Assembly (NCBI RefSeq): GCF_000284515.1
Contig: NC_017668.1
Coordinates: forward strand, 1 to 64,000
Direction: 5' to 3'
DNA from: Halobacillus halophilus DSM 2266
Lineage (GTDB): Bacteria; Bacillota; Bacilli; Bacillales; Halobacillaceae
Length of the DNA stretch: 64,000 bases
A program made the translations under genes and the position numbers. The notes beneath the pieces are model-generated. The model saw only the letters and a list, made by a program, of their open reading frames with translations. It did no database searches and was not told where the DNA came from. Positions within the stretch are counted from its first letter, which is position 1; every line of letters begins with the position of its first letter. Shown here piece by piece: positions 18,128-62,294 of the stretch.

Positions 18128-18755
18128 ACGCGCTATTTAGCGCTATCGTTTGTTTTTATAAAAGTCTTATTACACTATAGGGCCGAATAGTTGAAGACTC
18201 AGTTTCGAGATAATTCTGGTCCATTACGATATTTGGAGAAGGGCTGGTGGGGAAATAGCTCGCTTTCCTATGGGGGAACGGTAAGCTTCCTCGCTCGTTG
18301 TCACTCCCTGCGGGATCTTACCTAGTTCCTTCTCCCATGGGAGTCTCGCCATTTCCCCACCAGCCCCAGCTTTATTAGGAAGAACTGCCCCTTCGGAAAA
18401 AGAGAATTCTGTTCTCCTTAACCTGTCTGGAATGCTTATATAACAGGCTCTATCCCATAGTTTCAGCCTGATAAAAGGATAAAGCTCATGTAGTATTTAT
18501 TCTCAAGCGGTGAAGGGTAAAGCGGTTTCGAGCTTCTGATTTGGCAAAGTCCGGAGGGGGATGATGTAGACTCCTGTGGGATGAAAATGACAGGGGAGAC
18601 CCCGTAAGGCAAAGCCTGAGGAGGCTCCGCGCATTCCCACGGAAAGCGAAATCATCCCCCGAAGGACTGTCCTCTCAGCCTAAATATCTCGAAACTTAGT
18701 CTTACAGAAAAGGGAGCTTTACTGGAAGATTAAGTTGGAGGTTTAACAGGCTTTA
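18128..18755. repeat. intergenic inverted-repeat element, copy A
   Basis: One of four related non-coding elements in the window. An inner inverted repeat AAGACTCAGTTTCGAGATA (18194-18212) matches TATCTCGAAACTTAGTCTT (18685-18703) at 18 of 19 bases. Inside are two long hairpin modules in opposite orientation: the left one (18241-18366) is bounded by a perfect 16-bp inverted repeat, and the right one spans 18550-18666. Both contain the shared core GGGA...GGAAAGCGA. The right end has GTTTAACAGGCT, resembling the inverted left end of copy B. There is no open reading frame of note. It sits between the serS terminator and the tRNA-Ser promoter. Confidence 0.85.
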
Positions 18756-18861
18756 GAATTAAGGAAATTGACTATACACGTGAAGGTTCTTATAATGAGA
18801 AAAGATGAAACGACAAAATTCCTCTCTTTTCTACAGAAATGAAAAAAGTTTTTAATATATA

Positions 18862-18890
18862 TTGACGGGCTTACTCAGCCGTGATATTAT
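18862..18890 (+). promoter_or_regulatory. sigma-A promoter of tRNA-Ser
   Basis: TTGACG (18862-18867) and TATTAT (18885-18890) are 17 bases apart, 19 bases before the mature tRNA end. Confidence 0.75.
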
Positions 18891-18908
18891 ATTCATTGTC
18901 GGTCACAC

Positions 18909-19001
18909 GGAGGAGTACCCAAGTTTGGCTGAAGGGAGCGGTCTTGAAAACCGCCAGGGGGTTTACGCCCCGCGGGGGTTCGAATCCCTCCTCCTCCGCC
19001 A
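18909..19001 (+). tRNA. tRNA-Ser (anticodon TGA)
   Basis: The acceptor arm GGAGGAG (18909-18915) pairs with CTCCTCC (18991-18997), followed by G and an encoded CCA. The anticodon stem GCGGT/ACCGC encloses CTTGAAA with anticodon TGA (18945-18947). The long variable arm (GGGGGTTTACGCCCC region) and 93-base length are typical of tRNA-Ser. Its place after serS matches B. subtilis. Confidence 0.97.
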
Positions 19002-19045
19002 TTTTATTATCAACAATAGCGCATAATATTGGAGATTTATAGAAC

Positions 19046-19076
19046 AAAAGCAGCCTTTTCGAAGGCTGCTTTTTTA
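19046..19076 (+). terminator. terminator after tRNA-Ser
   Basis: AAAAGCAGCCTT pairs with AAGGCTGCTTTTTT around a short TTTCG loop. Confidence 0.9.
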
Positions 19077-19125
19077 GTTTGTGAAATTTTAAAACGTAAC
19101 AGTAATTAACAAACTTCTAAAGGCG

Positions 19126-19242
19126 CTATCTTCCTGCGAACAGAACATTTACCACTTGGAAGGGCAGGCAGTGGATATCTGCAGCTACAGGTTGCTCTGT
19201 TCCACTGGCCACGGATGTAACGGGAATGAATCGATCTTTCAT
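19126..19242 (-). pseudogene. remnant of an MBL-fold hydrolase N-terminus
   Basis: A 38-codon reading frame starts at ATG 19242 with a good site, AAAGGAGA, ten bases away. Its product contains PVTSVASGTEQPVAADIHCL and FQVVNV, which resembles the N-terminus of Bacillaceae MBL-fold metallo-hydrolases of the YflN-like kind. The frame stops where the family would continue into the metal-binding core, and nothing similar follows. I read it as a decayed gene. It could instead be a translated small peptide, since the start signals are intact. The family match is from memory. Confidence 0.5.
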
Positions 19243-19313
19243 GGAATGTATTCTCCTTTCTTTATGGATATGTTTTCCCATATATTACTTACTCCACATG
19301 TCCATAAGGCATG

Positions 19314-19352
19314 AAAAAAAGCCTGAAGAGATTTGATCTCTTCAGGCTTTTG
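19314..19352 (-). terminator. terminator after dck
   Basis: GCCTGAAGAGA (19321-19331) and TCTCTTCAGGC (19337-19347) are perfect complements. The A run at 19314-19320 gives a T run on the minus strand directly after dck. Confidence 0.9.
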
Positions 19353-19353
19353 T

Positions 19354-20037
19354 TTAGGTGAGCAAGTGGCTGGAACGCCATTTGCGGGATTGTTGGATAA
19401 AATGTCCTATCTTTTCCATAACCGGTTCAATACTGTTTTCATCATTTAACACATCATAGTCCGCTATATTCAGCCGAAGAACTGGGCAGGAATTGAAATT
19501 CTCAATCCAATTCTCATAACGTTTGAACATTTCCTCCCAATATTCGACAGGCGTTTCCTGTTCCATTGGCCGTCCTCGCTCTTTAATTCGATCGACAACG
19601 TCATCAAATGATCCTTCCAGATAAATTAATAAATCCGGATGAGGGAAATAGGGAGTCATGACCATGGCATCGAATAAATTCTTGTACGTTTGGTAATCTA
19701 TTTCAGACATCGTTCCTTTTTCATAATGCATACGGGCGAAAATGCCTGTATCTTCATAAATCGAACGATCCTGAATAAATCCACCGCCATATTCAAAGAT
19801 TTTCTTCTGCTCTTTAAAACGTTCAGCTAAAAAGTAAATTTGTAAATGGAAGCTCCAACGTTCAAAATCATGATAAAACTTATCAAGGTAAGGATTGGTT
19901 TCTACTTTTTCAAAAGAAGTACGAAATTTAAGGGCATCAGCTAATGCATTCGTCATGGTAGATTTCCCTACTCCAACTGTGCCTGCAATTGTAATGACGC
20001 TGTCATGTGGTATTCCATAGCGTTCACGTGCGTTCAT
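19354..20037 (-). CDS. dck: deoxyadenosine/deoxycytidine kinase
   Basis: Salvages deoxyadenosine and deoxycytidine by 5'-phosphorylation. The 227-residue protein has a P-loop (GTVGVGKST, about 19-27), the FYHDFERWSFHLQIYFL substrate segment, the catalytic QDRSIYED motif near 89 and a LID region with KERGRPME near 148. The start overlaps the dgk stop by four bases (ATGA), so translation is probably coupled. It is the second gene of a two-gene operon, in the same order as B. subtilis yaaG-yaaF. Confidence 0.93.
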   Translation of the reverse strand: MNARERYGIPHDSVITIAGTVGVGKSTMTNALADALKFRTSFEKVETNPYLDKFYHDFERWSFHLQIYFLAERFKEQKKIFEYGGGFIQDRSIYEDTGIFARMHYEKGTMSEIDYQTYKNLFDAMVMTPYFPHPDLLIYLEGSFDDVVDRIKERGRPMEQETPVEYWEEMFKRYENWIENFNSCPVLRLNIADYDVLNDENSIEPVMEKIGHFIQQSRKWRSSHLLT

Positions 20038-20675
20038 TTAATAACTTCTCCTTTATTTAAGTGCTGCTCTACAAGTTCAACAATATAATTTAAATCATCC
20101 TGATGTTTTACGAAATCAATATCATCGCCATTCAAGCGAATGACAGGGATATCAGGATGAGCCGCTTCAAAGTGATTCATGAAGTCCTCATAGTCCCTGG
20201 ATAACTGCTCTAAATAAGAGGGTTGAATATTGGCTTCAACATCCCTGTTTCGCATACGAATACGATCTAACAGGGTATCAAGACCAGCATGCAGATAAAC
20301 AATGATATTCGGACGCGGCATATCGTGCGTTAATATGTCAAAAATCTGAGAGTACTTTTGGAATTGATCTTCTCTTAAAGTACGTCGTGCAAAAATCATA
20401 TTTTTAGAAATATGATAATCGGCTATAACGGGCTTCTCTAACTGCAAATACTTCCGTTCGATATCCTCCAGCTGCTTGAACCGATTGCATAAGAAGAACA
20501 TCTCGGTTTGGAAGCTCCATTCTTCAATATTGTCGTAAAATTTGCCTAAAAACGGATTCTCCTCAACGATTTCCTTGAGCAAATGAAAATCAAACTGGGA
20601 GGCGAGCTTTTTAGACAGAGACGTTTTCCCAACACCAATGGGCCCTTCAACCGCAATGAAAGGTATATGTCCCAT
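20034..20675 (-). CDS. dgk: deoxyguanosine kinase
   Basis: Phosphorylates deoxyguanosine for salvage. The 213-residue protein has the P-loop EGPIGVGKTS near 9-18 and FYDNIEEWSFQTEMFFLC. The motif ADYHISKN stands where dck has QDRSIYED, a difference that separates the two kinases in B. subtilis as well. ATG 20675 follows GGAGGAG; the frame stays open upstream but has no site there. It is the first gene of the dgk-dck operon. Confidence 0.92.
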   Translation of the reverse strand: MGHIPFIAVEGPIGVGKTSLSKKLASQFDFHLLKEIVEENPFLGKFYDNIEEWSFQTEMFFLCNRFKQLEDIERKYLQLEKPVIADYHISKNMIFARRTLREDQFQKYSQIFDILTHDMPRPNIIVYLHAGLDTLLDRIRMRNRDVEANIQPSYLEQLSRDYEDFMNHFEAAHPDIPVIRLNGDDIDFVKHQDDLNYIVELVEQHLNKGEVIK

Positions 20676-20914
20676 CTCTTCTCCTCCTTCAAACTCAATT
20701 AAGAAAAGCACGCACACCCTATCGAATCTTTTCAAACTATAGAGAAAAGCGACCTGGGGGAACGGCTTATAATGATAACTATCCTGAGCGTTCAGACAGA
20801 CAAACTATATTTTATCATATCCGTAGAGTTGAAGTAACAGGAAGGAAGGAATTTGAGAAGAATTCACTTTTCATTCAAGCCAATGTTTTGTATAATATTA
20901 CATGTACGCTTTTT

Positions 20915-20987
20915 GCCCCCGTAGCTCAGGGGATAGAGCATCGGTTTCCTAAACCGTGTGCCGCAGGTTCGAATCCTGCCGGGGGCA
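20915..20987 (+). tRNA. tRNA-Arg (anticodon CCT)
   Basis: The acceptor arm GCCCCCG (20915-20921) pairs with CGGGGGC (20980-20986), and the discriminator is A. The T arm contains GGTTCGAATCC. The anticodon CCT is at 20948-20950, in the loop TTCCTAA; the base of the anticodon stem has one T-T mismatch. CCA is not encoded, unlike the tRNA-Ser gene. A TATAAT at 20891-20896 upstream is a likely -10 element with a weak -35. It marks the left edge of a block absent from this place in B. subtilis. Confidence 0.93.
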
Positions 20988-21002
20988 TTATTATCGTAAC
21001 TG

Positions 21003-21041
21003 AAAAGACCCGTCATCCTTCCATGGATGCCGGGTCTTTTC
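21003..21041 (+). terminator. terminator after tRNA-Arg
   Basis: AAAAGACCCGTCATCC pairs with GGATGCCGGGTCTTTT with one mismatch, followed by CTT. Confidence 0.85.
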
Positions 21042-21294
21042 TTGTACAAAAAAAACCGCAGATTTACCTGCAGAAATGGTGGAGGAGAAGTAAGCCATTT
21101 GCTCTTATTATTAACAATTTACAATCCTAGATTCAATATAAACAAATTTTGGAAAAGTTATACAAAAATAAAGACGCTAGAACAGAGTTCCAACGCCCGA
21201 GAGAGACAATACTTTAATCTACAGGTATTTAAAGAAGTATATGTCTTATGAATTTATCATAACATATTATTTAAAAATAATAAAAAATGATTCC
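21042..21294. other. gap without recognisable feature
   Basis: About 250 bases between the tRNA-Arg terminator and the modC stop. Short open frames here have no ribosome site and no recognisable similarity. It is AT-rich near 21240-21290. I see no clear terminator for the mod operon. Confidence 0.5.
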
Positions 21295-21924
21295 TTACCA
21301 AAATTCGTCTGGAGATCCTAGATTACCCTGATCAATGGGAAGGATCCGGTCTCCTAGTTTTCTAGCTTCCTCTTCGTCATGAGTTACGAGGATGATAGGG
21401 ATTTGCCACCTGCTATGAAGGCGGAGTAGTTCCTGGTGGCACTGATCCTTCGTTTGTCGATCCAGAGAAGAAAATGGCTCATCCAGTAGCAAAGCCCTGG
21501 GCTTAGTAGCAAGAGCGCGGACTAAGGCAACTCGCTGCTTTTCTCCACCTGATATTTGATGAGGGTAGCTTGTCATCAAATGTTGAATACCAACTACTTC
21601 AGTTAATTGCTGGACTAATTCATCATCATTGGAACCATATTGGATGTTCTTTTGGACAGTCATATGAGGAAACAGAGCATAATTCTGAAACAAGTAGCCA
21701 ATACGCCGTTTTTGAACCGGAACTTTGGATCTTCCGTCGAAGAGTTTCTCTCCGTTCAGCTCAATATGGCCTTCGTCCGGGTGACTCAGACCAGCGATAC
21801 AGTTAAGAGTAGTCGTTTTTCCAGAGCCTGAGGGGCCAAATAAAATGATGATTTCGTTTTGAAAAGAAGCCTTTATATCAAGTAGAAAGTGATTGAGACG
21901 TTTTTGAAAATCAAGATTTAGCAT
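21295..21924 (-). CDS. modC: molybdate ABC transporter ATP-binding protein ModC
   Basis: The ATPase of a molybdate importer. Walker A GPSGSGKTT is at 30-38, the ABC signature ISGGEKQRV near 124-132 and Walker B LLLDEP at 145-150. The protein has only 209 residues: the C-terminal MOP/TOBE molybdate-binding domain of longer ModC proteins is absent, so no internal substrate sensing is expected. ATG 21924 follows GGAGG. It is the last gene of modABC, 15 bases after modB. Tungstate or sulfate are less likely substrates. Confidence 0.82.
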   Translation of the reverse strand: MLNLDFQKRLNHFLLDIKASFQNEIIILFGPSGSGKTTTLNCIAGLSHPDEGHIELNGEKLFDGRSKVPVQKRRIGYLFQNYALFPHMTVQKNIQYGSNDDELVQQLTEVVGIQHLMTSYPHQISGGEKQRVALVRALATKPRALLLDEPFSSLDRQTKDQCHQELLRLHSRWQIPIILVTHDEEEARKLGDRILPIDQGNLGSPDEFW

Positions 21925-21939
21925 AGATAAGGCCTCCTG

Positions 21940-22626
21940 CTAAGATTTACGATTGAACAAAAGTACGTTACGCCTAGTCCACCAATTCAACCATAAGGTG
22001 GAACTAAAACCCAGGGCTACAATAATAAGAACCCACATTTTTGCCTGCTCCATCCGTCCAGCTTCAACCGCGAAATAGATGGCTAACGGAATGGTATCCG
22101 TCTGGCCTGGAATATATCCTGCAATCATTAAGGTAGCCCCGAATTCTCCAAGTGCCCGGGCAAAGGAAAGAACCGTTCCGGCCAGCAGTCCCGGCCATGC
22201 CAAAGGTAAGGATATCGTAAAGAAAACCTTCAGCCTGGAAGCCCCCATCGTTAAAGCCGCATTCTCTACGTTTGAATCATAATTTTGAAACGCAGCCGAA
22301 GCGCTCTGATACATAAGAGGAAATGAAACCACCACTGCAGCAATAACAGCCCCTATCCAGGAGAAAACAACTTGAACCCCAAACCAGTCCATTAGCCATT
22401 TACCCAGTATTCCGTTTTTCCCAAATAGATAAAGCAGACCGAAACCTACTACGGTGGGTGGTAAAACAAGTGGTAGTAAAAATACAGATTCTAGAATACT
22501 TTTCCCGGGAAATAAATTCCTGGAAATGACTCGGGCAAGTATAACCCCGGCTATAAAAACAAGCAGGGTGGCAATGGCTGCAATTTTTAAAGATAAGAAT
22601 AGAGGAGAATAGCTCATAGTCAACAT
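21940..22626 (-). CDS. modB: molybdate ABC transporter permease ModB
   Basis: The membrane subunit of the importer, 228 residues with about five hydrophobic segments. The cytoplasmic EAA loop (ALTMGASRLKVFFTISLPLAWPG, about 142-164) docks the ATPase; the motif is given here by position because it is long. Two starts are possible, ATG 22626 and ATG 22617; AGGAAGTGA is better spaced for the second. It lies 11 bases after modA. Confidence 0.85.
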   Translation of the reverse strand: MLTMSYSPLFLSLKIAAIATLLVFIAGVILARVISRNLFPGKSILESVFLLPLVLPPTVVGFGLLYLFGKNGILGKWLMDWFGVQVVFSWIGAVIAAVVVSFPLMYQSASAAFQNYDSNVENAALTMGASRLKVFFTISLPLAWPGLLAGTVLSFARALGEFGATLMIAGYIPGQTDTIPLAIYFAVEAGRMEQAKMWVLIIVALGFSSTLWLNWWTRRNVLLFNRKS

Positions 22627-22637
22627 TCACTTCCTGC

Positions 22638-23405
22638 TTACGATTGAAATCCGTATTTTTTCATAATCTCTTTTGCTTCTTTCCTACTGAGAAAGTTTAA
22701 AAAATCAGTGGCTTCTTGCTTGTGCGTACTGTCTGATAAAATAGCCCCTGGGTACACGATCGGTTTATGTAATTCAGGATCGATTTCTGTCAGCACTCTA
22801 ACCTGGTCTGATATTTTAGCATCACTTCTGTAGACGATTCCATAAGATACATTCCCGGATTCTACATAGGTTAAGACTTGGCGTACATCACTGGCAAAAA
22901 CCAGCTGCTCTTCGATTAAATCCCAAAGATGAATCTTTTGGAGGGCCTGTTTCGTATAAGAACCAGCAGGAACACTTTCGGGTTCTCCCACTGCTATTTG
23001 TGATTCAGGTGGAAGATTCCCTAAAGTTTGCAAGGATGTTAATTCGTTATTGCTTTTCGATCCGATTATAACGAGATGGTTAGAAGTGAAGTTCCGCCGA
23101 GTTGCAGATTCAATCTGCTTACCAGCTTCAAGCTGGTCCATCCACTTTTGATTAGCAGACAAGTACACGTCCACAGGTGCTCCTTGTTCAATTTGACGGG
23201 CCAGTTTGCCGGAACTGGCTAAATTTAATTGAATGCTAACGTTATGATTATTTTCATATGTATCGGTTAATTCTTTCATGACGTCTGTTAAACTGGAAGC
23301 TGCTGAAATAGTCAAGCTCTTTTTCTCTTCCGAAGAAGCAGAACAGCCGGCGAATGGTACAATTATAATGAGGAAGGCAAGTAAACGTAACAGCTTTATT
23401 TGCAT
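22638..23405 (-). CDS. modA: molybdate-binding lipoprotein ModA
   Basis: The extracellular substrate-binding protein. From ATG 23405 it has 255 residues, beginning with a lipoprotein signal peptide (LLAFLIIIVPFAGC, lipid Cys near 21). The mature part contains ISAASSLTDVMKELTD and NLASSGKLARQIEQGAPVDV, typical of ModA. AAGGAGG precedes this ATG; the frame continues upstream but without a site or sensible signal. First gene of modABC. Confidence 0.88.
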   Translation of the reverse strand: MQIKLLRLLAFLIIIVPFAGCSASSEEKKSLTISAASSLTDVMKELTDTYENNHNVSIQLNLASSGKLARQIEQGAPVDVYLSANQKWMDQLEAGKQIESATRRNFTSNHLVIIGSKSNNELTSLQTLGNLPPESQIAVGEPESVPAGSYTKQALQKIHLWDLIEEQLVFASDVRQVLTYVESGNVSYGIVYRSDAKISDQVRVLTEIDPELHKPIVYPGAILSDSTHKQEATDFLNFLSRKEAKEIMKKYGFQS

Positions 23406-23442
23406 CTTTTCTGCCTCCTTATCGTGGTTTCCACTATAGAAC

Positions 23443-23472
23443 ATTATATCGCTCGAGAAAAGTGAAGTACAA
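23443..23472 (-). promoter_or_regulatory. sigma-A promoter of modABC
   Basis: On the minus strand TTGTAC (23472-23467) and TATAAT (23448-23443) are 18 bases apart, about 40 bases before modA. No ModE-like palindrome was seen. Confidence 0.6.
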
Positions 23473-23506
23473 AGAAAAGATATTAAGAAAAGAAAGGATA
23501 TCACCA

Positions 23507-24163
23507 ATGAAAACACAAATCATTCTTGGACTCATCGTGGCTTTGTTACTAACTCAAATGCCTATAGTTGGAAAGTACTTTGCGATTCTGAACACGATGA
23601 TTCACGAAAGTGGTCATTCGTTAACGGCCCTCATTACGGGAGGCGAGGTGCGCAGAATTTCTTTGCTTCCTAACACTTCTGGAACCACATTGACGGGGCA
23701 TTCGTCATGGATCAGTCATTTCCTAACCAGTATTTCAGGTTATGTCTTTGCTTCTTTTTTTGCATTCCTCTTTTTTTATTTAATTTCCAAGGGTCAGTAT
23801 AAGTGGATGATTTATATTCTTATTGCTTTTTTAGCGGTTAATCTAGTCTTTTGGGTGCGAAATGGTTACGGACTCTTCTGGGTCATTACTTTCGGGGCAG
23901 GATTTATCTGGCTGTTGCGAAGTGGTAACCAGACCTTTATTGAATATGTGCTCGTATTTTTAGCATCCCTTGTTTTTGTAGAAGCGGTAACAAGCGCTTT
24001 TGAGATTATGTGGATTAGTTTCGTGTCCCCTATGCAGGCTGGTGACGCTGCCAACTTAGCACGTGCTACAAAATTTATACCTGCACCCTTATGGGGAATG
24101 GCTTTCTTTGCCCAGTCTTTATACTTTGCCTGGCTCGGAATAAGACGATTTTTCCCTATATAA
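23507..24163 (+). CDS. M50-family-like membrane metalloprotease
   Basis: A 218-residue integral membrane protein with about six hydrophobic segments. HESGH (33-37) in MIHESGHSLTALITGG fits the zinc-binding HExxH of M50-type proteases. The partner motif with the third zinc ligand is not clear to me. Similar Bacillaceae proteins are annotated as M50 family, with unknown substrates. The ATG 23507 has AAAGGAT upstream. It is divergent from modA. Confidence 0.7.
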   Translation: MKTQIILGLIVALLLTQMPIVGKYFAILNTMIHESGHSLTALITGGEVRRISLLPNTSGTTLTGHSSWISHFLTSISGYVFASFFAFLFFYLISKGQYKWMIYILIAFLAVNLVFWVRNGYGLFWVITFGAGFIWLLRSGNQTFIEYVLVFLASLVFVEAVTSAFEIMWISFVSPMQAGDAANLARATKFIPAPLWGMAFFAQSLYFAWLGIRRFFPI

Positions 24164-24240
24164 TGAGTAAAGGCTATAAAAGAAACCTTCCATTTATTTA
24201 GAGTCGTTTTCGATTTTTAAGGTGGACGGTTACTTAATTA

Positions 24241-24256
24241 GGGCTAACAGAGCCCA
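24241..24256. other. short hairpin in the gap before the YjcZ-like gene
   Basis: GGGCTAACAGAGCCC can form a five-base stem. It lies between the M50-like gene and the YjcZ-like gene and has no T run, so it is at best a weak terminator. Confidence 0.3.
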
Positions 24257-24339
24257 AAAATAAAAAACTCCGCTCCTGCCCTGTCATCCCTTCCGGAACT
24301 GAATATGGTAGTAAAGTAAGCAAGAGAGGAGGGAATGAA

Positions 24340-24444
24340 ATGAGCGGAGGATACGGTGGCGGTTTCGCCCTACTAGTAGTATTGTTCATCCTTTTGGTTA
24401 TCATTGGTGCATCTTATGTAGGTGGCCGTGGTTACGGGTATTAA
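24340..24444 (+). CDS. YjcZ-family small spore protein
   Basis: A 34-residue protein, too short for most gene finders. It begins MSGGYGGGFALLVVLFILLV, carries one membrane segment (9-25) and ends YVGGRGYGY. This glycine-tyrosine pattern around one membrane helix is that of the YjcZ family of sporulation proteins. ATG 24340 is preceded by GAGGAGGG at ideal spacing. The function is unknown; similar peptides are often found in spores. Confidence 0.85.
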   Translation: MSGGYGGGFALLVVLFILLVIIGASYVGGRGYGY

Positions 24445-24451
24445 AATAATG

Positions 24452-24472
24452 GGCGGGAATATCTCCCGCTTT
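24452..24472 (+). terminator. weak terminator after the YjcZ-like gene
   Basis: GGCGGGA pairs with TCCCGCT around AATATC, followed by TTTG. Confidence 0.45.
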
Positions 24473-24550
24473 GTACATATAATGGAAAGTTTGTCGGGAA
24501 GTGCACGGGGGTATCGTAAAATAGAATAAGTTCATGGAGGAATCCCGCAT

Positions 24551-24805
24551 ATGAATCTAAAAGATCGTTTAATTACCAATGGTTTTGATCACATTGATAT
24601 CCTTCTCGTGGAAGATGAAGGTGATCAAACCACTGTACCCGATATAACTTTGCATAAGGTGAATGATCTCGAGTACAAGCTTTATCTGCAACCGGAGACC
24701 ATACAGTATCACTTAGACAACGAATACCCTTACTTTGAAGCGGTACAAAACAGCGGGGAAGAGGGGAAGAAAACAGTGAAAGGTTACATACTGGAGTGGA
24801 AATAA
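24551..24805 (+). CDS. small acidic protein of unknown function
   Basis: An 84-residue, strongly acidic soluble protein. I do not recognise the family. The frame is supported by GGAGGAA before ATG 24551, codon use like its neighbours and a terminator right after the stop. The sequence is mostly polar with alternating hydrophobic residues (IDILLVED, LEYKLYLQ), suggesting a small alpha-beta fold. There is no signal peptide. It appears to be a single-gene unit. Confidence 0.7.
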   Translation: MNLKDRLITNGFDHIDILLVEDEGDQTTVPDITLHKVNDLEYKLYLQPETIQYHLDNEYPYFEAVQNSGEEGKKTVKGYILEWK

Positions 24806-24830
24806 AGTCCTGATTTCAGGGCTTTTTTTA
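24804..24830 (+). terminator. terminator after the 84-residue gene
   Basis: AAAGTCCTGA pairs with CAGGGCTTT across a small loop, followed by a run of T. Confidence 0.8.
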
Positions 24831-24843
24831 ATGGAAAATTAGC

Positions 24844-25038
24844 TTACCCTTTACGTTTTGACTGCTTTATACGTTCTTTACGGTCTGCATAGCCTCCAAT
24901 AATGAGGAATATTCCAGACACGAATAAAACCATGGATACCAAGGGATCTTGAATCGTGAACAGTAAAATAATAGATGCGATGATGTTGCCAATACCTACA
25001 AGTCCTAAAATGATAAACATTTGATTTTGTTTTTTCAT
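24844..25038 (-). CDS. small two-helix membrane protein
   Basis: A 64-residue protein with two membrane segments (about 8-27 and 33-49), a positively charged start (MKKQNQ) and a very basic C-terminus (DRKERIKQSKRKG). The charge pattern places both ends in the cytoplasm. GGAAGGAAA precedes ATG 25038. I do not recognise a named family. Confidence 0.65.
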   Translation of the reverse strand: MKKQNQMFIILGLVGIGNIIASIILLFTIQDPLVSMVLFVSGIFLIIGGYADRKERIKQSKRKG

Positions 25039-25172
25039 TGTTTTCCTTCCTTTCTTATCGCTCAGGGTTCATACCCCTTTTACTAAACCTTCAAGGATAA
25101 CATATCTGCTTGTTTATAATTTGTAAACAGGTGGAATGCATTGGATAAATACCAAATCAGGAGGTTACTATT

Positions 25173-26624
25173 TTGCAGACACATCAATTATATATTAATG
25201 GTCAATATATAGAATCTGAAGGCAATGAATGGATTAAAGTTCTTAATCCAGCAACCGAACAAGTTATTTCTCAAATACCGAAAGGCACTAAAAATGATGT
25301 AGAGAGTGCCGTAAGCGCTGCTGCTGGTGCTCAAAAAGAGTGGGAACTTACCCCAAATATCGAACGAGGAAAGATTGTACGAAAGCTTGGCGATCAAATC
25401 GAAGAAAATCGCGAGAAATTCATTGATCTTTTACAGGAAGAGCAAGGAAAAGATTATGAACTGGCCAGCGGAGAAATTGATTTAGCGATAGATTATTTCC
25501 GATATATGTCCGAATGGGCGAGAAGAATTGAAGGGGACGTCGTTCCAAGTGACCGTCCGAATGAAAATATATTCATTTATAAAAAACCTATCGGGGTGGT
25601 AGCCGGGATTGTACCTTGGAATTTCCCTATGTTTATTTTGGCAAGGAAAGTAGCTACCGCTCTTGTGACAGGCTGTACAATTGTACTGAAGCCGAGTCAG
25701 CAGACCCCGAACACAGCTATGGAATTTACAAAAATCATTGATGGCATGGAAGAAATACCAAAAGGCGTATATAACTTGATTACAGGCACAGGATCAGAAA
25801 TCGGTAATACGTTAGCGTCTCACAAAAATGTACACATGATCTCGATGACCGGAAGCGTTGGGGCCGGTACGAAGGTCATGGAAGCAGCCGCTCAAAATAT
25901 TACCAAGGTAAATCTTGAGCTAGGTGGCAAGGCTCCTGCCATTGTAACAGCCAATGCAGATCTTGATATTGCTGTCGAAAGCATTCTGACTTCAAGACTT
26001 GCTAATAATGGTCAGGCTTGTACGAACGCCGAACGAGTTTATGTGCACGAAAGCAAAGCAGAAGACTTAATTGAACAGCTTAAAAATAAATTTGAAGCCT
26101 GCACACTCGCCAACCCTCGTGAGAATAAAGATGCTGATGTAGGTCCACTTGTGAGCCAGGATCGTCTGGAAGAAGTGGAAAGTATGGTAAAACAAGCCGT
26201 AGACGAAGGGGCAAAAGTGGAAACTGGCGGCGAACGCGGCGATCAGGATCAAGGCTATTTTTATAAACCAACGATATTAACCAATGTCACGCATGACATG
26301 ACGATTATGCAGGAAGAAATATTTGGTCCGGTTATTCCAATCACTACCTTCAACACGCTCGATGAGGCTATCGAAAAAGGAAATGATACGGAATATGGTC
26401 TATCCTCTTCCGTCTACACCGATGATTTAAATGAAGCTATGCGCGTAGTCAATGAACTGAAATTCGGCGAAACGTATGTGAACCGTGAGAACTTTGAAGA
26501 AGTGCAAGGGTATCACGCAGGTATGCGTAAGTCAGGCCTTGGCGGGGCTGATGGAAAACATGGAATGGAAGACTTCCTTGTTACACAGGTCGCTTATATG
26601 CAATATAAAAATGATAAAAAATAA
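25173..26624 (+). CDS. aldehyde dehydrogenase, AldA-like
   Basis: An NAD-dependent aldehyde dehydrogenase of 483 residues. Catalytic Cys283 lies in NNGQACTNAERV, Glu249 in LELGGK, Asn150 in VPWNFP, and Lys173 in KPS contacts the cofactor. The C-terminal stretch NRENFEEVQGYHAG...GGADGKHG closely resembles E. coli AldA, which oxidises lactaldehyde and glycolaldehyde, so a similar substrate is likely but unproven. The start is TTG 25173 after AGGAGG. It stands alone, with a terminator shared with the convergent gene. Confidence 0.85.
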   Translation: MQTHQLYINGQYIESEGNEWIKVLNPATEQVISQIPKGTKNDVESAVSAAAGAQKEWELTPNIERGKIVRKLGDQIEENREKFIDLLQEEQGKDYELASGEIDLAIDYFRYMSEWARRIEGDVVPSDRPNENIFIYKKPIGVVAGIVPWNFPMFILARKVATALVTGCTIVLKPSQQTPNTAMEFTKIIDGMEEIPKGVYNLITGTGSEIGNTLASHKNVHMISMTGSVGAGTKVMEAAAQNITKVNLELGGKAPAIVTANADLDIAVESILTSRLANNGQACTNAERVYVHESKAEDLIEQLKNKFEACTLANPRENKDADVGPLVSQDRLEEVESMVKQAVDEGAKVETGGERGDQDQGYFYKPTILTNVTHDMTIMQEEIFGPVIPITTFNTLDEAIEKGNDTEYGLSSSVYTDDLNEAMRVVNELKFGETYVNRENFEEVQGYHAGMRKSGLGGADGKHGMEDFLVTQVAYMQYKNDKK

Positions 26625-37176: not shown

Positions 37177-37695
37177 AGGTTCTGTTAAACGTGGTTATGT
37201 TATTTCAAAAGGGACTTATTAAACTAAAGGGCCGGATTGTGGAAGACTCAGTTTCGAGATAAATTGGGTCCGTTACTGATATAGAGAGGGGATGGCTACG
37301 GAAACCGAGCCACGTGAGAATAACGGACCCTTTTCAAGAGAGAAGGTTCTCCTCCTAAATAGGTTCTAAAATGCTTCCATAACAAGCTCTTTCACATCAT
37401 TCTAGCATGAAAATAACCTCATCACCCCATGCTTTTTCTCATCAAACAAATAGAGTGTTAGGTGGTTTCGAGTATCAGATTCGGCCAGGTCCGGAGGGGA
37501 ACGGGGAGACTCCTGTGGGATAAACATGATCGGTGAGACCCCGGAAAGCGTTAGCTTGAGGAGGCTCAGCACATGCCCACGGAAAGCGAGTCGTTCCCCG
37601 CAGGACCTAACTCTCTCACGAGATATCTCGAAACTGAGTCTTCGAGTAATGGGAGCTTAACTGCAAGATCAACACTGAGGGTTAACTGAGCCTTC
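37177..37695. repeat. intergenic inverted-repeat element, copy B
   Basis: The inner inverted repeat is perfect: AAGACTCAGTTTCGAGATA (37243-37261) and its complement at 37624-37642. The right module (37499-37607) is intact, but the left one is reduced to a short remnant (GGCTACGGAAACCGAGCCACG near 37294-37314) before GGACCC. The outer ends, AGGTTCTGTTAAAC (37177) and GGTTAACTGAGCCT near 37680, are imperfect inverted repeats. It fills the gap between the SRP RNA terminator and dnaX. Confidence 0.85.
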
Positions 37696-37794
37696 TTATA
37701 TAGGAAATATCTTAAACACTCAAATGTCTAAGGTTCACATCCAAACCTCCAATCAGGTATAATGGAGAAGAGACTAAAAAGGGAGAACGGTTAT

Positions 37795-51910: not shown

Positions 51911-51948
51911 CAAGCCTTTCCTTGCTCTTCCAAGGAAAGGCTCTCTTT
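51911..51948 (+). terminator. terminator after yabA
   Basis: AAGCCTTTCCTTG and CAAGGAAAGGCT pair, followed by CTCTTTAT, a weak T tract. Confidence 0.75.
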
Positions 51949-51953
51949 ATATT

Positions 51954-52568
51954 AAGGTCTGTTAAATCTAGTTATTAATTTTATAAGAGCTTTATTAAAG
52001 TATAGGGCCGGTTACTGTAAGACTCAGTTTCGAGATCATTCAGGTCCGTCGCCGATAAGTAGATGAGGGCGGCTACGGAAACAACTCGCTTTCCTGCGGG
52101 GAAACTGGCAAGCCTCCTCGGTCGTTGACACTCCCTGTGGGGTCTCGCCTCGCTCCTTCTCCCGCGGGAGTCTCCTTGTTTCCTTCGCCTCCCTATGATT
52201 GAAGAGTGAACGGACCCTTCTATAGGCGAAAAGGAGAGTTTGATCCGCCTTAAATGCTTATATAACGGGAATTATCCACCGTACACGCTCATTGTTAGAA
52301 GTTTATCTCCACCATAAACCAGAGTTTTTCAAACATGATTTCGAGCTCTATATTTCGCAAGGTCCGGAGGGGGACGATGAAGACTCCTGTGGGATGAACA
52401 TGATCGGTAAGATCCCGCAGGGCTGTTAAGCCCGAGGAAGCTTACCACATGCCCACGGAAAGCGAAATCGTCCCCCGCAGGACCTAATTCTCTCAAAGTC
52501 TCGAAATCAAGTCTTCAAGTAATGGGAGCTTTTGTTTAAAATCAACACTGTAAATTAACTGAGCTTTA
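51954..52568. repeat. intergenic inverted-repeat element, copy C
   Basis: Left inner repeat AAGACTCAGTTTCGAGAT (52019-52036); its right partner near 52499-52516 has decayed (GTCTCGAAATCAAGTCTT). Both internal modules are present in opposite orientation: a left one with CTCGCTTTCCTGCGGGG near 52086-52102 and a right one from GGTCCGGAGGGGGACGAT (52360) to CGTCCCCCGCAGGACC near 52485. The outer left end GGTCTGTTAAA equals that of copy B. It lies between the yabA terminator and yabB. Confidence 0.85.
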
Positions 52569-52660
52569 TATTAAATAAAAAATGTCCATGATAAGCTTAT
52601 TAGGAACATCTATGATAATGAAGATCTGATTAACTTCCATACGTTAGAAAGGAAACAAGC

Positions 52661-54585: not shown

Positions 54586-54657
54586 TATATATTACAACAT
54601 ATGTCTAGTTGTTTTCTTCTCTTTATTAACCAATGTCGTCACTCTTTGTTTATTTAT

Positions 54658-54933: not shown

Positions 54934-54962
54934 TTTTCTGTCTCCCCTCAATCAAAAGTTAT

Positions 54963-54979
54963 TTCGTCATGTTTCGACA
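54963..54979 (-). promoter_or_regulatory. Spo0A boxes in the abrB leader
   Basis: On the minus strand TGTCGAA (54979-54973) and TGACGAA (54969-54963) are spaced ten bases apart, start to start. The first is an exact 0A box, the second has one change. The pair lies downstream of the -10, as in B. subtilis abrB, where Spo0A~P represses. Confidence 0.85.
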
Positions 54980-54993
54980 TATGTCTCGCCATT

Positions 54994-55022
54994 ATAGTAC
55001 CAACCATTCCCAAACGTGTCAA
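54994..55022 (-). promoter_or_regulatory. sigma-A promoter of abrB
   Basis: TTGACA (55022-55017) and TACTAT (54999-54994) are 17 bases apart on the minus strand. A TATAAT overlaps three bases further. Confidence 0.75.
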
Positions 55023-55221
55023 TTACTTATAACCGATGATTATTTCCAACTCCGTATACCGGTTAGGGTATTTTGGGTGGTGTCACTGAGTACCTGAGCA
55101 GGCCTGTGCGAGTAATCGAAACTCTCTACTCTACCAAAAATGGTTGAAATAACCATCTTTTGATTACACTTAATTTTACCAAAGTAATGACAGATGTGAA
55201 ATGTATAATCTTAACTTTTTT
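55023..55221. other. unexplained gap between abrB and metG promoters
   Basis: About 200 bases upstream of both divergent promoters. ATGGTT and AACCAT near 55139-55154 form a small hairpin followed by CTTTT on the plus strand. CTGAGTACCTGAGCAGGCC near 55088 is not recognised. No reading frame with a ribosome site was found. Confidence 0.4.
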
Positions 55222-55251
55222 TTGACAGTTATCCAATTCGTTCGGTATATT
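55222..55251 (+). promoter_or_regulatory. sigma-A promoter of metG
   Basis: TTGACA (55222-55227) and TATATT (55246-55251) are 18 bases apart. The remaining leader is about 100 bases and has no T-box motif. Confidence 0.75.
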
Positions 55252-55316
55252 TTAATGTTAGGAATGGAAATAAAGTAGATAACTCGATAAAATGTTACAA
55301 TAGCCATTATGAATGA

Positions 55317-57314
<1,998 letters not shown>

Positions 57315-57329
57315 CTGACGTAATGACAG

Positions 57330-57361
57330 AAAGGGAGAGCGGGACTAAGCTTTCCCTTTTT
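57330..57361 (+). terminator. terminator after metG
   Basis: AAAGGGAGAGC pairs with GCTTTCCCTTT with one mismatch, followed by T residues. Confidence 0.85.
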
Positions 57362-57394
57362 GTTATCATCAAATGAAGAAGAAAGGGGATTACT

Positions 57395-58165
57395 ATGCTT
57401 TTTGATACACATGTCCACTTAAATGCGGATCAATTCGAGGAAGATTTGGAAGCTACCATTCAACGCGCCAATGAAGCGGGAGTAGAGTATATGACGGTCG
57501 TTGGCTTTGATCATAAAACGATTCCTAAAGCTATTGAAATTGCGGAAAGCCATGAGAAAATTTATGCGGCCGTCGGCTGGCACCCTGTTGATGCCGTTGA
57601 CTTGTCAGACAAGGAACTTGAGTGGATTGAAGAACTCTCTTCTCATCCTAAGGTTGTGGCAATAGGAGAGATGGGGCTGGATTACCATTGGGACAAGTCT
57701 CCGGCAGACGTTCAAAAAGAAGTTTTTCGAAAACAAATCCGTTTGGCTAAGAAAGTGAAGATGCCCATTATTATTCATAATCGTGAAGCGACGGATGATA
57801 TCGTGGAAATATTAAAAGAAGAAGACGCTTCTGAAGTAGGAGGAATCATGCATTGCTATAGCGGCCCTGTTGAGACGGCCCAGGAATGTATAGATATGAA
57901 CTTTATGATTTCTCTCGGAGGTCCGGTTACCTTTAAAAATGCCAAGCTGCCGAAAGAAGTGGCTAAAGCGATCGACTTAAAGCACATGCTGGTAGAAACG
58001 GATTGCCCATTCCTTGCCCCTCATCCCAATCGAGGCAAGCGCAATGAGCCGGCATACGTAAAACTTGTGGCCGAACAAATAGCGGAGTTAAAAGAAATCA
58101 CCTTTGAAGAGGTGAGCGAAGTGACGACCTCAAATGCTCTTCAATTTTTTGGTATTCAATCATAA
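57395..58165 (+). CDS. yabD: TatD-family metal-dependent DNase (YabD)
   Basis: A 256-residue TIM-barrel hydrolase of the TatD family. The metal ligands are DTHVHL (4-9), GEMGLD near 91, the IIHNREA His near 129, HCYSGP near 153 and ETDCPFL near 203. TatD proteins are DNases linked to repair or DNA breakdown. GAAAGGGG precedes ATG 57395. Same place as yabD in B. subtilis. Confidence 0.93.
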   Translation: MLFDTHVHLNADQFEEDLEATIQRANEAGVEYMTVVGFDHKTIPKAIEIAESHEKIYAAVGWHPVDAVDLSDKELEWIEELSSHPKVVAIGEMGLDYHWDKSPADVQKEVFRKQIRLAKKVKMPIIIHNREATDDIVEILKEEDASEVGGIMHCYSGPVETAQECIDMNFMISLGGPVTFKNAKLPKEVAKAIDLKHMLVETDCPFLAPHPNRGKRNEPAYVKLVAEQIAELKEITFEEVSEVTTSNALQFFGIQS

Positions 58166-58252
58166 TACAGTGGCAATTGTTACAGTAAACTCTCATTTGT
58201 ACTGGAACTGTAACATGACTGTTATGTTAATTATTCATGGAAAATTGCATAA

Positions 58253-58290
58253 AAAAGAAGCTAGCTCTACCCAAGCTGGCTTCTTTTTTA
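58253..58290 (+). terminator. terminator after yabD
   Basis: GAAGCTAGCT and AGCTGGCTTC pair with one mismatch around CTACCCA, with A and T runs on the two sides. Confidence 0.8.
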
Positions 58291-58349
58291 TTGGCTCTTT
58301 TAAATCACCTTTTTGAATACTACATAAGAAAAAAGAAAGCCGGAATCAA

Positions 58350-58553
58350 GTGGTTGGTGGTTGCTATTGGGACAACGGCAATCCAGATGTGATTCCTTTG
58401 CGAAGCTGTGTCTGGATAGAAGGCTACGGGTATGCTGTAGCAGGGGATACCGGTGGTGCGATTAATGGTAAACGTATAGATCTTTTCGTTCCAGATAAGG
58501 AACAAGCACTGAGCTTCGGCCGTAAGCAAGTTAAGGTCAAATTTCTGGACTAA
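58350..58553 (+). pseudogene. yabE: remnant of yabE (3D domain only)
   Basis: A 67-codon open frame whose product (VIPLRSCVWIEGYGYAVAG...DTGGAINGKRIDLF...VKVKFLD) is the C-terminal part of the 3D domain of YabE-type cell wall proteins. The signal peptide, DUF348 repeats, G5 domain and start of the 3D domain are missing. No ribosome site precedes the GTG. Just upstream, another frame reads KKKAGIKWLVVAIGTTAI, like a membrane anchor, so a large internal deletion with frameshift is likely. The place between yabD and rnmV is that of yabE. Confidence 0.8.
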
Positions 58554-58581
58554 GCAGAGGCATCCTTCCTCTGCTTTTTTT
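58552..58581 (+). terminator. terminator after the yabE remnant
   Basis: AAGCAGAGG and CCTCTGCTT are perfect complements followed by T residues. It starts in the stop codon of the remnant. Confidence 0.88.
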
Positions 58582-58646
58582 CCGTTATACACTCGTGGTA
58601 TGCTATGAAAAGATTAATTGAGGTGAATAAACAGGAGGAAATAAAG

Positions 58647-60078
<1,432 letters not shown>

Positions 60079-60083
60079 ATGAC

Positions 60084-60110
60084 ACAGGGAAGCCAAACTC
60101 ACATACACTA
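60084..60110 (+). promoter_or_regulatory. predicted sigma-K promoter of yabG
   Basis: CATACACTA (60102-60110) fits the sigma-K -10 CATANNNTA, and an AC (60084-60085) is 16 bases upstream. The B. subtilis yabG gene is a sigma-K gene. Confidence 0.5.
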
Positions 60111-60140
60111 ATGTAGTGCTCTTTGTGAGGTGGGTGAACC

Positions 60141-61025
60141 ATGATAACAAAAGGAGATCTTGTTACAAGAAAGTCGTATCAGCATGACATTATTTTTCGT
60201 GTGAAAAATTGTGATAAACCACTTGTTAAACTCATGGGAGAACATATCCGCTTAGAAGCGGATGCGCCCCTTGAGGATTTAGAAAAAGTGAGTGGAGACG
60301 AATACCACAGAAGAAAAATAGAAGTAGATGAACAGGAAGCTTTTTCTTACAGACTCTTTAAACAGGATTATCGGCTTCTAAAAGAGAAACGGGATTCCCA
60401 GGCTGAGAGTGGTTATGCTTCAGGGAAGGATGCTAAATATTTTCAAATTCCTCCCCGCGTGCTTCATATAGATGGGGACCCTCTCTTCCTGAAAAAATGT
60501 ATTGCTCTTTATGAAGAGCTGGGAATACAAGTGCATGGTCAATATATGCATGAAAAAGAAATGCCGGAGCAGGTCATGGGGCTTATAGAGAAAGTCCAGC
60601 CGGAAATTGTGGTGCTTACAGGACATGATGCTTATTCAAAGGCTAAAGGTACTGTTAAGGAGCTTGAAGCGTATCGCCACTCCCGTTTCTTTGTGGAGTC
60701 GGTTAGGAATATAAGGCAGAAGTATCCGAATTTTGACCAGATGGTTATCTTTGCAGGAGCCTGTCAATCCCATTTTGAATCTTTAATCAGAGCGGGAGCT
60801 AATTTTGCCAGTTCGCCTTCAAGGGTTAATATTCATGCAATTGATCCCGTATATGTTGCAGCGCGTGTAGCTTATACTTCCTTTATGGATCATATAAATA
60901 TTTGGGAAGTCATCCGTAACACAATTAGTGGAGAAAAGGGGCTCGGAGGAGTGGAGACCCGCGGTCTTTTGAGAATTGGTATTCCTTATTCGGAACATTC
61001 GGAAGATCCTAATGACATCAGTTAG
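60141..61025 (+). CDS. yabG: sporulation-specific protease YabG
   Basis: A cysteine protease that trims spore coat proteins. The 294-residue protein contains GHDAYSK and FAGACQSHFES with His and Cys candidates, and the family ending GLLRIGIPYSEH. The start MITKGDLVTRKSY is typical. GAGGTGGG precedes ATG 60141. Expected in the mother cell late in sporulation. Confidence 0.93.
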   Translation: MITKGDLVTRKSYQHDIIFRVKNCDKPLVKLMGEHIRLEADAPLEDLEKVSGDEYHRRKIEVDEQEAFSYRLFKQDYRLLKEKRDSQAESGYASGKDAKYFQIPPRVLHIDGDPLFLKKCIALYEELGIQVHGQYMHEKEMPEQVMGLIEKVQPEIVVLTGHDAYSKAKGTVKELEAYRHSRFFVESVRNIRQKYPNFDQMVIFAGACQSHFESLIRAGANFASSPSRVNIHAIDPVYVAARVAYTSFMDHINIWEVIRNTISGEKGLGGVETRGLLRIGIPYSEHSEDPNDIS

Positions 61026-61086
61026 TTATATTTGAACGGAAACGCTCATATACTCAAATTAACGTGTGTTTGGTCCACACATGTAG

Positions 61087-61124
61087 AAGACCTGCCTAAA
61101 GAAAAGAAAAAGCAAGGTCTTTTT
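61087..61124 (+). terminator. terminator after yabG
   Basis: AAGACCTGC pairs with GCAAGGTCTT with a one-base bulge, followed by TTTT. The loop is A-rich and long. Confidence 0.65.
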
Positions 61125-61198
61125 CATTTTTTGAATAAAGTCACATATTTTTCCTGTTATTGGAGAACCTAGCAGAGAACATCTATAAAATTTTTATG

Positions 61199-61228
61199 TT
61201 GACATGGATTTTGACATATTGGTATAAT
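61199..61228 (+). promoter_or_regulatory. veg promoter, upstream of two
   Basis: TTGACA (61199-61204) and TATAAT (61223-61228) are both consensus, 18 bases apart. Confidence 0.8.
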
Positions 61229-61240
61229 TTATAGTTTTAT

Positions 61241-61269
61241 TTGACTTTGTCCAATCTGTGTGGTACTAT
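61241..61269 (+). promoter_or_regulatory. veg promoter, downstream of two
   Basis: TTGACT (61241-61246) and TACTAT (61264-61269) are 17 bases apart, 24 bases before the veg start. Two tandem sigma-A promoters are also known for B. subtilis veg. Confidence 0.85.
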
Positions 61270-61292
61270 AAATAACAGTGAGGTGGAGTGTA

Positions 61293-61553
61293 GTGGCTAA
61301 AACGTTAGTAGAAATCAAACAATCCCTGGAAGGGCAAATTGGCAGACGTCTAACCCTGAAAGCAAATGGTGGACGTCGTAAAACGATTGAACGCTCAGGA
61401 ATTCTGGCTGAAACATACCCAGCCGTTTTTATTGTTGAACTGGACCAGGAAGAAAATGCTTTTGAACGTGTATCCTATAGCTATGCCGATGTTCTTACCG
61501 AGACTGTAGAACTGAATTTCGATGATTTACAGACCTTGGCTCTTGAGCAGTAA
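61293..61553 (+). CDS. veg: Veg protein
   Basis: An 86-residue protein, strongly expressed in B. subtilis, where it stimulates biofilm formation by interfering with Sin[22 protein letters not shown] (given by its core [12 protein letters not shown], near 24-35) is the hallmark. The start is GTG 61293 after GAGGTGGAG, giving MAKT-like; an earlier in-frame GTG at 61278 overlaps the site. Confidence 0.93.
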
Positions 61554-61622
61554 ACTCCACGTTTGCTGCTTTTTATTTTTTTATAAAATGGGAACAGCTG
61601 TTAGGTCATCCAATTATTTCTC

Positions 61623-61649
61623 GTATAGCTTAATTGCCAAATCATATAC
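61623..61649 (+). promoter_or_regulatory. predicted sigma-G promoter of sspF
   Basis: GTATA (61623-61627) and CATACTA (61643-61649) are 15 bases apart, close to the sigma-G forms GMATA and CATNMTA. sspF is a forespore gene. Confidence 0.65.
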
Positions 61650-61693
61650 TAACCTTGTCGTAGCTTTAGTGGTTGCGAAAGGAGCTGAAGACG

Positions 61694-61876
61694 ATGGGGC
61701 GCAGAAGAGGTATGATGTCCGATTCGTTTAAAGAAGAGATCGCGAAAGAACTTGGGTTTTACGACAAGGTTCAAAAAGATGGCTGGGGCGGTATTACGAC
61801 ACGCGAAGCCGGCAATATGGTGAAGTGGGCAATAGAGAAAGCAGAAGAACAGATGATAAGAGAACAGCAAAAATAG
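61694..61876 (+). CDS. sspF: small acid-soluble spore protein SspF
   Basis: A DNA-coating spore protein of the alpha/beta type, SspF subfamily, 60 residues. [20 protein letters not shown] at the start and [15 protein letters not shown] near 38-52 are typical; the germination protease site is less clear in this subfamily. AAAGGAG precedes ATG 61694. Confidence 0.93.
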
Positions 61877-61878
61877 AT

Positions 61879-61919
61879 TAAAGCTCCTTGAAGCCTTCAT
61901 TGGCCTCAAGGAGCTTTTT
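61879..61919 (+). terminator. terminator after sspF
   Basis: AAAGCTCCTTGAAG pairs with CTCAAGGAGCTTT, followed by T residues. Confidence 0.9.
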
Positions 61920-61934
61920 TACATCTGACCCTGT

Positions 61935-62294
61935 GTCGATTTCATAGGGTACTTATTCAACAATAGGGCCGGTTACTTGAAGACTCAGTCTCAAGATATC
62001 GTGTTAGTCTGTAGGTCCTTCGGGGGACGATTTCGCTTTCCATGGGCATGTGCTGAGTCTCCTCAGTCGTTTCTGAATGACTGAGGAGGCTCCTGGTAAA
62101 AAGGAGGATCGACTAAAATTGCCACTTCGTGTGGCAACGTCGATCGACCCTACATCGTGTAGGGCCACAGGAAAGCGAGTTATTTCCCAACCAACCCTTA
62201 TCCATCTATCGTAACGGACCCATTTATCTCGAAACTGAGTCTTTAACAAAAGGGAGCTTTTCTTTAAAATCAACGCAGAGATTACCAAAGTCTT
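61935..62294. repeat. intergenic inverted-repeat element, copy D (short, rearranged)
   Basis: Left inner repeat AAGACTCAGTCTCAAGATA (61980-61998) and right TATCTCGAAACTGAGTCTT (62225-62243). The interior begins with GGTCCTTCGGGGGACGATTT, the reverse complement of the right-module ends of copies A-C, so it is inverted and then truncated. The centre holds three consecutive hairpins: near 62055-62093, 62119-62137 and 62148-62164. It lies between sspF and ispE. Confidence 0.8.

Follow-up and report, generated by a model that had tools for sequence, protein, structure and literature searches.

Insertion sequences of the IS1595 family (DDE, ISXO2-like), together with the miniature inverted-repeat transposable elements (MITEs) of that family, have terminal inverted repeats (TIRs) of the form GGCTCTGTTAAA-N6-TGTTGAT and 8-bp A/T-rich target duplications; ISApl4, one of its members, also makes A/T-rich 8-bp repeats (PMC12561309). 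The same ends and duplications occur in a family of intergenic elements of Halobacillus halophilus DSM 2266, four copies of which (A to D) lie in the first 64,000 nucleotides of contig NC_017668.1, the 64-kb stretch of DNA referred to here as the window. In contrast to the IS1595 family, the Halobacillus elements have no transposase and hold a core of palindrome and hairpin modules that is exchanged between copies. Two other described systems touch on parts of this structure. The nearest published relative that we noted for inversion of the core is ISWpi1 of Wolbachia, in which TIR-TIR recombination produced inversions at 2 of 22 loci (PMC3004938). Bacillaceae-1 RNA (Rfam RF01690), presented as a candidate structured RNA in PMC2864571, appears here as an optional hairpin within the MITE core. 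The family is ordinary in its class and unusual in its behavior, since its cores are exchanged between fixed shells. A literature search over titles and the beginnings of abstracts, which is not proof of absence, returned no report of the family or of gene conversion among bacterial MITEs, and the words "IS1595" and "gene conversion" are absent from a review of prokaryotic MITEs (PMC10969869). We regard it as quite probable that about 200 IS1595-type MITEs were spread through this genome by an IS1595 transposase and that their cores are homogenized by ectopic gene conversion between fixed arms.

All four intergenic elements are present where the initial annotation had placed them. Within the two arms of each, a 19-bp inner inverted repeat (IR19, AAGACTCAGTTTCGAGATA) encloses the core, whose orientation relative to the arms falls into two classes, F and R. 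In window coordinates, the features are as follows.

18128 to 18755, plus strand: copy A, adjoining a tRNA gene (A upstream); outer ends degenerate, core orientation F, right arm end ...TTTAACAGGC
18194 to 18212, plus strand: copy A left IR19, 0 mismatches
18240 to 18372, minus strand: copy A left hairpin module, reverse orientation (module profile)
18545 to 18668, plus strand: copy A right hairpin module, forward orientation (module profile)
18685 to 18703, minus strand: copy A right IR19, 1 mismatch, read as locus L001
37170 to 37177, plus strand: copy B left target duplication TTTTTATA, 7/8 match to the right one
37178 to 37692, plus strand: copy B, ends GGTTCTGTTAAAC ... GTTAACTGAGCC, core orientation F, left module mostly missing
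37243 to 37261, plus strand: copy B left IR19, pairing 19/19 with the right IR19
37487 to 37608, plus strand: copy B right hairpin module (module profile)
37624 to 37642, minus strand: copy B right IR19, 19/19
37693 to 37700, plus strand: copy B right target duplication TTCTTATA, 7/8 match to the left one
51946 to 51955, plus strand: copy C left direct repeat TTTATATTAA, 10 bases, same as the right one
51956 to 52564, plus strand: copy C, ends GGTCTGTTAAAT ... AATTAACTGAGC
52019 to 52037, plus strand: copy C left IR19, 1 mismatch
52058 to 52200, minus strand: copy C left hairpin module (module profile)
52358 to 52486, plus strand: copy C right hairpin module (module profile)
52497 to 52515, minus strand: copy C right IR19, 5/19 departures, read by eye and not found with 4 mismatches allowed
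52565 to 52574, plus strand: copy C right direct repeat TTTATATTAA, 10 bases, same as the left one
61935 to 62294, plus strand: copy D, short core (264 nt) in orientation R, outer ends degenerate
61980 to 61998, plus strand: copy D left IR19, 2 mismatches
62097 to 62163, plus strand: Bacillaceae-1 RNA motif (RF01690) within the copy D core, Rfam match of 62.9 bits
62225 to 62243, minus strand: copy D right IR19, 0 mismatches

Much of what had been read from these four copies is borne out. IR19 pairs at 19/19 positions in B and 18/19 in A, as first described, and its proposed conservation across copies holds for A, B and D (2 mismatches in the left repeat of D), with "conserved" being a loose term for C because its right IR19 departs at 5 of 19 positions. 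All four copies keep the AGGGCCG and GGGAGCTT flanks at the same spacing, as do, with variants, most of the 97 copies sampled below. A hairpin with a T-rich tail, read from the sequence, precedes each of the four, in agreement with the suggested position shortly after a terminator. Lack of a transposase had also been noted, and no open reading frame (ORF) of at least 120 aa overlaps any of the window copies; the sole ORF of at least 50 aa in copy A has 50 codons. The outer ends described earlier could be refined to exact ends with direct repeats in B and C, and are so degenerate in A and D that no target duplication is discernible in those two copies.

The genome that contains the window (G000; 4,170,008 bases in 3 contigs) holds 430 matches to IR19 at up to 3 mismatches compared with 1 for the reversed control, and 358 compared with 0 at up to 2 mismatches. 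With two IR19 matches per element, the 430 matches correspond to about 200 elements, in line with the earlier estimate of hundreds per genome and with the further copies sought there; at about 0.6 kb each, they would make up an estimated share near 3% of the chromosome. Copies were drawn in two samples. The first comprised 79 elements paired from 91 sources; its members were selected because they resemble copy A or match a left-arm motif exactly, which favors intact arms. The second took 20 exact IR19 hits regardless of arms and yielded 18 pairs, bringing both samples to 97 copies; its two unpaired loci were a free-standing palindrome (L311) and a truncated element retaining the right arm and IR19 (L292). 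Loci without an IR19 pair within 5 mismatches were dropped before counting, and copy C was among those missed in the first sample. The elements are laid out as a 66-nt left arm closing with AGGGCCG plus 8 nt, IR19, the core, IR19', 8 nt, GGGAGCTT, and a 50-nt right arm that closes with the inverse of the left outer end. Core length ranges from 0.16 to 0.9 kb and is mostly near 0.5 kb. Ends of well-kept copies read GGCTCTGTTAAA-N6-TGTTGATT, and the consensus over the sampled copies is GGCTCTGTTAAA-N6-TGTTGATTTT. Both ends were located in 67 copies. In the 29 of these whose ends have no more than 3 mismatches each, the target duplications, another feature to be checked according to the initial annotation, are 8 bp long and 81% identical, against a shuffled mean of 41% and a maximum of 51% over 200 shuffles, and a shift by one base destroys the signal.

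A transposase-bearing element with the same ends was found outside the genus, in the IS1595 family. The IS1595-type DDE domain is present in 53 of 249 genomes of the order (E 0.001), and 13 of the 30 loci examined have paired ends within 2 mismatches of GGCTCTGTTAAA. Ten of these 13 have target duplications matching at 8/8 positions, all A/T-rich; the end-pairing rule preferred pairs with a good duplication, and ten perfect 8-mers exceed chance despite that preference. A genome of the same bacterial family (G030) combines 141 IR19 hits with two IS1595 copies. One of them (L357) matches 12/12 at both ends and has the duplication AATTCTTT; the other (L356), for which one end was found, has an intact transposase ORF of 350 codons (350 aa; Pfam IS1595, PF12762). 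Because the ends and the 8-bp duplication are common to IS1595-family elements, it is close to certain that the Halobacillus elements are non-autonomous MITEs of IS1595 type, and the MITE-like, non-autonomous reading offered earlier is upheld by further copies, target duplications and a transposase-bearing relative. Judging by ends and duplications, the transposase behind the spread would have been of IS1595 type, one not found in the genus today. A repeat that had no name and occupies about 3% of a Halobacillus chromosome thereby becomes a transposon family for which the transposase family can be named.

Cores and arms of the elements have separate histories. In 2218 core alignments, limited to those longer than 350 nt, 26 core pairs are at least 95% identical (some cores are identical across 455 nt), and the arms of these pairs are 77.5% (left) and 79.3% (right) identical, compared with 77.2 and 76.7% for random pairs. 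Identity is raised just outside IR19, where the first 4 nt agree in 87.5% of positions on the left and 79.8% on the right in near-identical core pairs against backgrounds of 71.7 and 60.1%, and it decays toward background across about 35-45 nt. The cores themselves are mosaic patchworks, also between F and R cores. For mosaic tests and the core tree, 55 cores of 440-520 nt were kept and the others left out; in 797 of 1485 standard-core pairs (23 expected) and in 389 of 756 pairs of opposite orientation (mean 12 by chance), none of 50 column permutations gave an identical run as long as the longest one observed. These counts are inflated, as the test takes no account of conservation that varies along the core.

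The core is uncoupled from its arms at orthologous sites as well, where arms stay while cores differ. Seven comparisons at six such sites, with relatives G002, G005, L031 and L032, gave arms 77-98% and flanks 79-99% identical, and the ortholog core was never closest to the core at its own site, ranking 16 to 92 among 72 to 92 cores. Orthologous cores are opposite in orientation in six of the seven comparisons, the exception being site C against L032. In another species (G013, listed with 2 contigs), 28 core pairs of at least 90% identity have arms 74.8 and 78.1% identical, compared with 75.5-76.7 and 74.5-76.0% for other pairs, and one core pair is identical apart from a gap. That sample consists of best matches to one element, which favors the orientation class of that element; 29 of its 30 loci were paired, leaving 27 after two with unclear arms.

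Gene conversion is the likely cause of this exchange. We propose that, after an IS1595 transposase had spread the elements, RecA-type ectopic gene conversion would homogenize the cores, anchored in the shared sequence of arm and IR19. The family would then preserve a natural record of such conversion among dispersed repeats in bacteria, one that can be read because the histories of arms and cores are separate. Several observations weigh against this explanation, beyond the inflated mosaic counts. Arms of 66 and 50 nt that are about 77% identical make poor substrates for homologous recombination, and many pairs have the whole core replaced, as cassette exchange would also produce. The relatives G002 and G005 are drafts, in which some core differences may be assembly errors; uncoupling of core and arm is also seen inside G000 (3 contigs) and G013 (2 contigs). 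In two orthologous comparisons (L025 and L011), only one of the flanks has a long megablast match above 90%, and the ortholog of copy D in L032 has degraded IR19 arms with 5 mismatches each. The IS1595 transposase (PF12762) occurs in 0 of 22 genomes of the genus, own genome included, leaving the elements without a partner in the genome, and the family therefore looks orphaned in the genus. Old MITEs commonly have no autonomous partner, and the class is not defined by having one.

Cassette exchange, which we judge rather unlikely, holds that IR19-core-IR19 is a second mobile unit entering shells made of arms by means of a transposase or recombinase of its own that acts at the palindrome. It would account for the swapping of whole cores with boundaries near IR19, and palindromes of the form IR19'-22 nt-IR19 do match in 29 of 44 genomes of the bacterial family, some of these matches being arms of full elements; the left arm of a MITE in G022 contains the whole palindrome. 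A unit moving by itself fits poorly with the presence of arms in all 79 copies of the first sample, which were chosen partly by arms, and in 16 of the 18 copies drawn without regard to them. The two remaining loci (L308, without clear arms, and L296, without a clear right arm) have no recognizable core. Patchy mosaics, which include F and R cores, and the gradual fading of identity outside IR19 also speak against such a unit. The Halobacillus arms (AGGGCCG.., ..GGGAGC) may be half-decayed palindromes. A bolder reading, which we consider rather unlikely, takes the arms for fixed ports and the core with its palindromic boundaries for a shared cartridge, actively copied among about 200 ports by palindrome-stimulated recombination, with the hairpin modules, Bacillaceae-1 included, kept uniform and rapidly replaced throughout the chromosome. 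Were this so, the modules might be expressed and work as RNAs, or they might serve proteins of the chromosome or of recombination as sites. Many palindromes in other genomes are free-standing (L311:74-133; L327-L345 near 1501), with a nearly fixed center CTGCCC/GGGCAG; several extend outward to TTTGAAAC and TCGTATG-like ends and may be a small element of their own.

The cores contain an inverted pair of hairpin modules of about 125 nt with compensatory changes. A five-module profile gave 177 module hits in the 97 cores, 88 and 89 by strand and so about one per strand per core, with 132 of them near full length. Covariation was analyzed in 40 hand-picked modules of the 55 distinct right modules, in which a 41-pair fold is 97.2% paired. 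Both sides have changed in 17 of the 41 pairs, against 9.5 in shuffled alignments and with none of 500 shuffles reaching the observed value, a strong covariation. The module covariation score is 0.230 compared with 0.108, and sliding the partner collapses the signal. Counting in the other direction, the fold was derived from the same modules in which it was tested, and further pair types, one of five measures, are not above shuffles (27 vs 29.0). Double changes include few G-U intermediates, no clear asymmetry of G-U and A-C was found by which the RNA strand might be told, and the mixed alignment of left and right modules has almost no structure without G-U pairs. The hairpins may have been kept by selection, as RNA or as DNA hairpins, or they may be repaired on their own complement. 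A smaller MITE on plasmids of Bacillus, Priestia, Peribacillus and Paenibacillus (L201, from about 3012) shares the left outer end and the CTCGCTTTCC...GGGGTCTC module; it differs in having one module, no IR19, a length of about 200 bp and a degenerate right end.

This covariation counts in favor of an alternative already raised in the initial annotation, that of a structured RNA. In this reading the elements would be a structured noncoding RNA family (a Bacillaceae-1-like sRNA) with the repeats as its boundaries, which appears unlikely to us. Some cores do contain full-length matches to RF01690 above the gathering score: copy D is one such case, 12 hits fall within the cores of 10 of 20 loci, and one L031 element has the motif as well. 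All 10 of these loci have an odd core length, as do 19 of the 20. The motif was found in only 1 of 20 further loci and in 0 of the 18 among them with standard-length cores. TIRs, target duplications and about 200 copies are the marks of a mobile element, and the few G-U intermediates and the lack of a clear asymmetry of G-U and A-C departures would also be expected of DNA hairpins or self-templated repair. The RNA proposal is partly borne out for the interior of the elements, by the covarying modules and by the presence of RF01690 in some cores. In L012 and L141, RF01690 is found twice within the core, the two matches being on opposite strands, and the Rfam family may therefore be part of a mobile element; the matches suggest that Bacillaceae-1 RNA, at least here, is such a part.

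Core orientation relative to the arms is nearly evenly divided in the 97 copies (48 F and 46 R, with 3 unclear), and relatives have different orientations at five of six orthologous sites. Both observations would suit an invertible switch, with a site-specific recombinase inverting the core between its two IR19 copies in the manner of phase-variable promoters, yet we consider such a switch very improbable. Orientation follows the core tree, with 3 changes over 55 cores compared with a shuffled mean of 18.6 and none of 500 shuffles as low, on a tree that recombination distorts. Close core pairs (at least 90% identical) share their orientation in 51 of 51 cases in the own genome and 28 of 28 in G013; given also the few changes on the tree, inversions therefore look rare and old. 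Where orthologous cores are opposite in orientation they are different cores, with the ortholog at rank 26-92 in those six comparisons. Since orientation changes only 3 times on the core tree, an inversion switch is less likely than ectopic gene conversion. Under gene conversion, anchoring in the arms would make a copied core retain its orientation with respect to them, and a site would switch orientation class on receiving a core of the other class. The two classes would date from a small number of old inversions, with recombination between the IR19 arms as the probable route. In ISWpi1, too (PMC3004938), short inverted repeats within the element recombine and the interior inverts; unlike there, inversion in Halobacillus looks rare and old, and orientation differences at the sites studied accompany a different core. 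An orientation difference at such loci need not mean a genetic switch.

REPINs are defined by REP pairs adjoining a RAYT gene and by the absence of target duplication. That the elements are REPINs moved by a RAYT (Y1) transposase is hardly credible: the own genome does encode a 185-aa Y1 protein (Pfam Y1_Tnp; L112:1462-2019), but the elements have 8-bp target duplications and DDE-type TIRs, and the 3.3-kb locus around the Y1 gene contains no IR19 or TIR at up to 3 mismatches. Two further transposase families were rejected as partners. ISL3 is present in only 3 of 22 genomes of the genus, and its copies in the own genome end differently, with GGCTCTAGAATATTTGTTGGGG. For IS1182, a Geobacillus plasmid copy apparently has its own ends, and in the case of Peribacillus plasmids the module merely rides along as a passenger. 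On two of the latter (L222:2135-3897 and L223:2135-3897), an IS1182-family element has the hairpin module upstream of its transposase, and a 90% relative of this element is found on a P. muralis plasmid (L224).

Among 30 loci that have long flanks, not one has an ORF running across the element, and 28 of the insertions adjoin at least one gene 3' end; flanking ORFs, called mechanically, are convergent at 14 loci, tandem at 14 and divergent at 2. One megabase of the chromosome (G000:C1:1950000-2950000) is poor in elements: of the 94 exact hits to the left arm, 9 fall there (binomial p 0.0003, the stretch having been picked once the distribution had been seen). Copy A has matches in all 22 genomes of the genus Halobacillus, and none in plasmid and phage records at E 1e-5. 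With up to 2 mismatches allowed, IR19 is present in 43 of the 44 genomes of the bacterial family. Counts per genome range from 1 to 358, and since the control gives as many as 1, those at the bottom of the range say little. As for empty sites in relatives, which the initial annotation had recommended seeking, sites C and D are without the element in other species (L033, L034), but intergenic divergence there hides the single target copy. Lone ends of the form GGCTCTGTTAAA-N6-TGTTGATT occur on viral contigs and plasmids (L206, L208, L209, L207:6530, L203:3011-3036 and L204:3011-3036); a partner end was not found within 3.5 kb in L206, L208 and L209. Most of these lone ends lie directly behind T-rich, terminator-like stretches. 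The MetS gene of the window is 98% identical to those of H. halophilus AcN7-4 and H. alkaliphilus FP5, and a 1.2-kb stretch of the AcN7-4 relative (L031:11806-12995) is missing at window positions 58326-58381.

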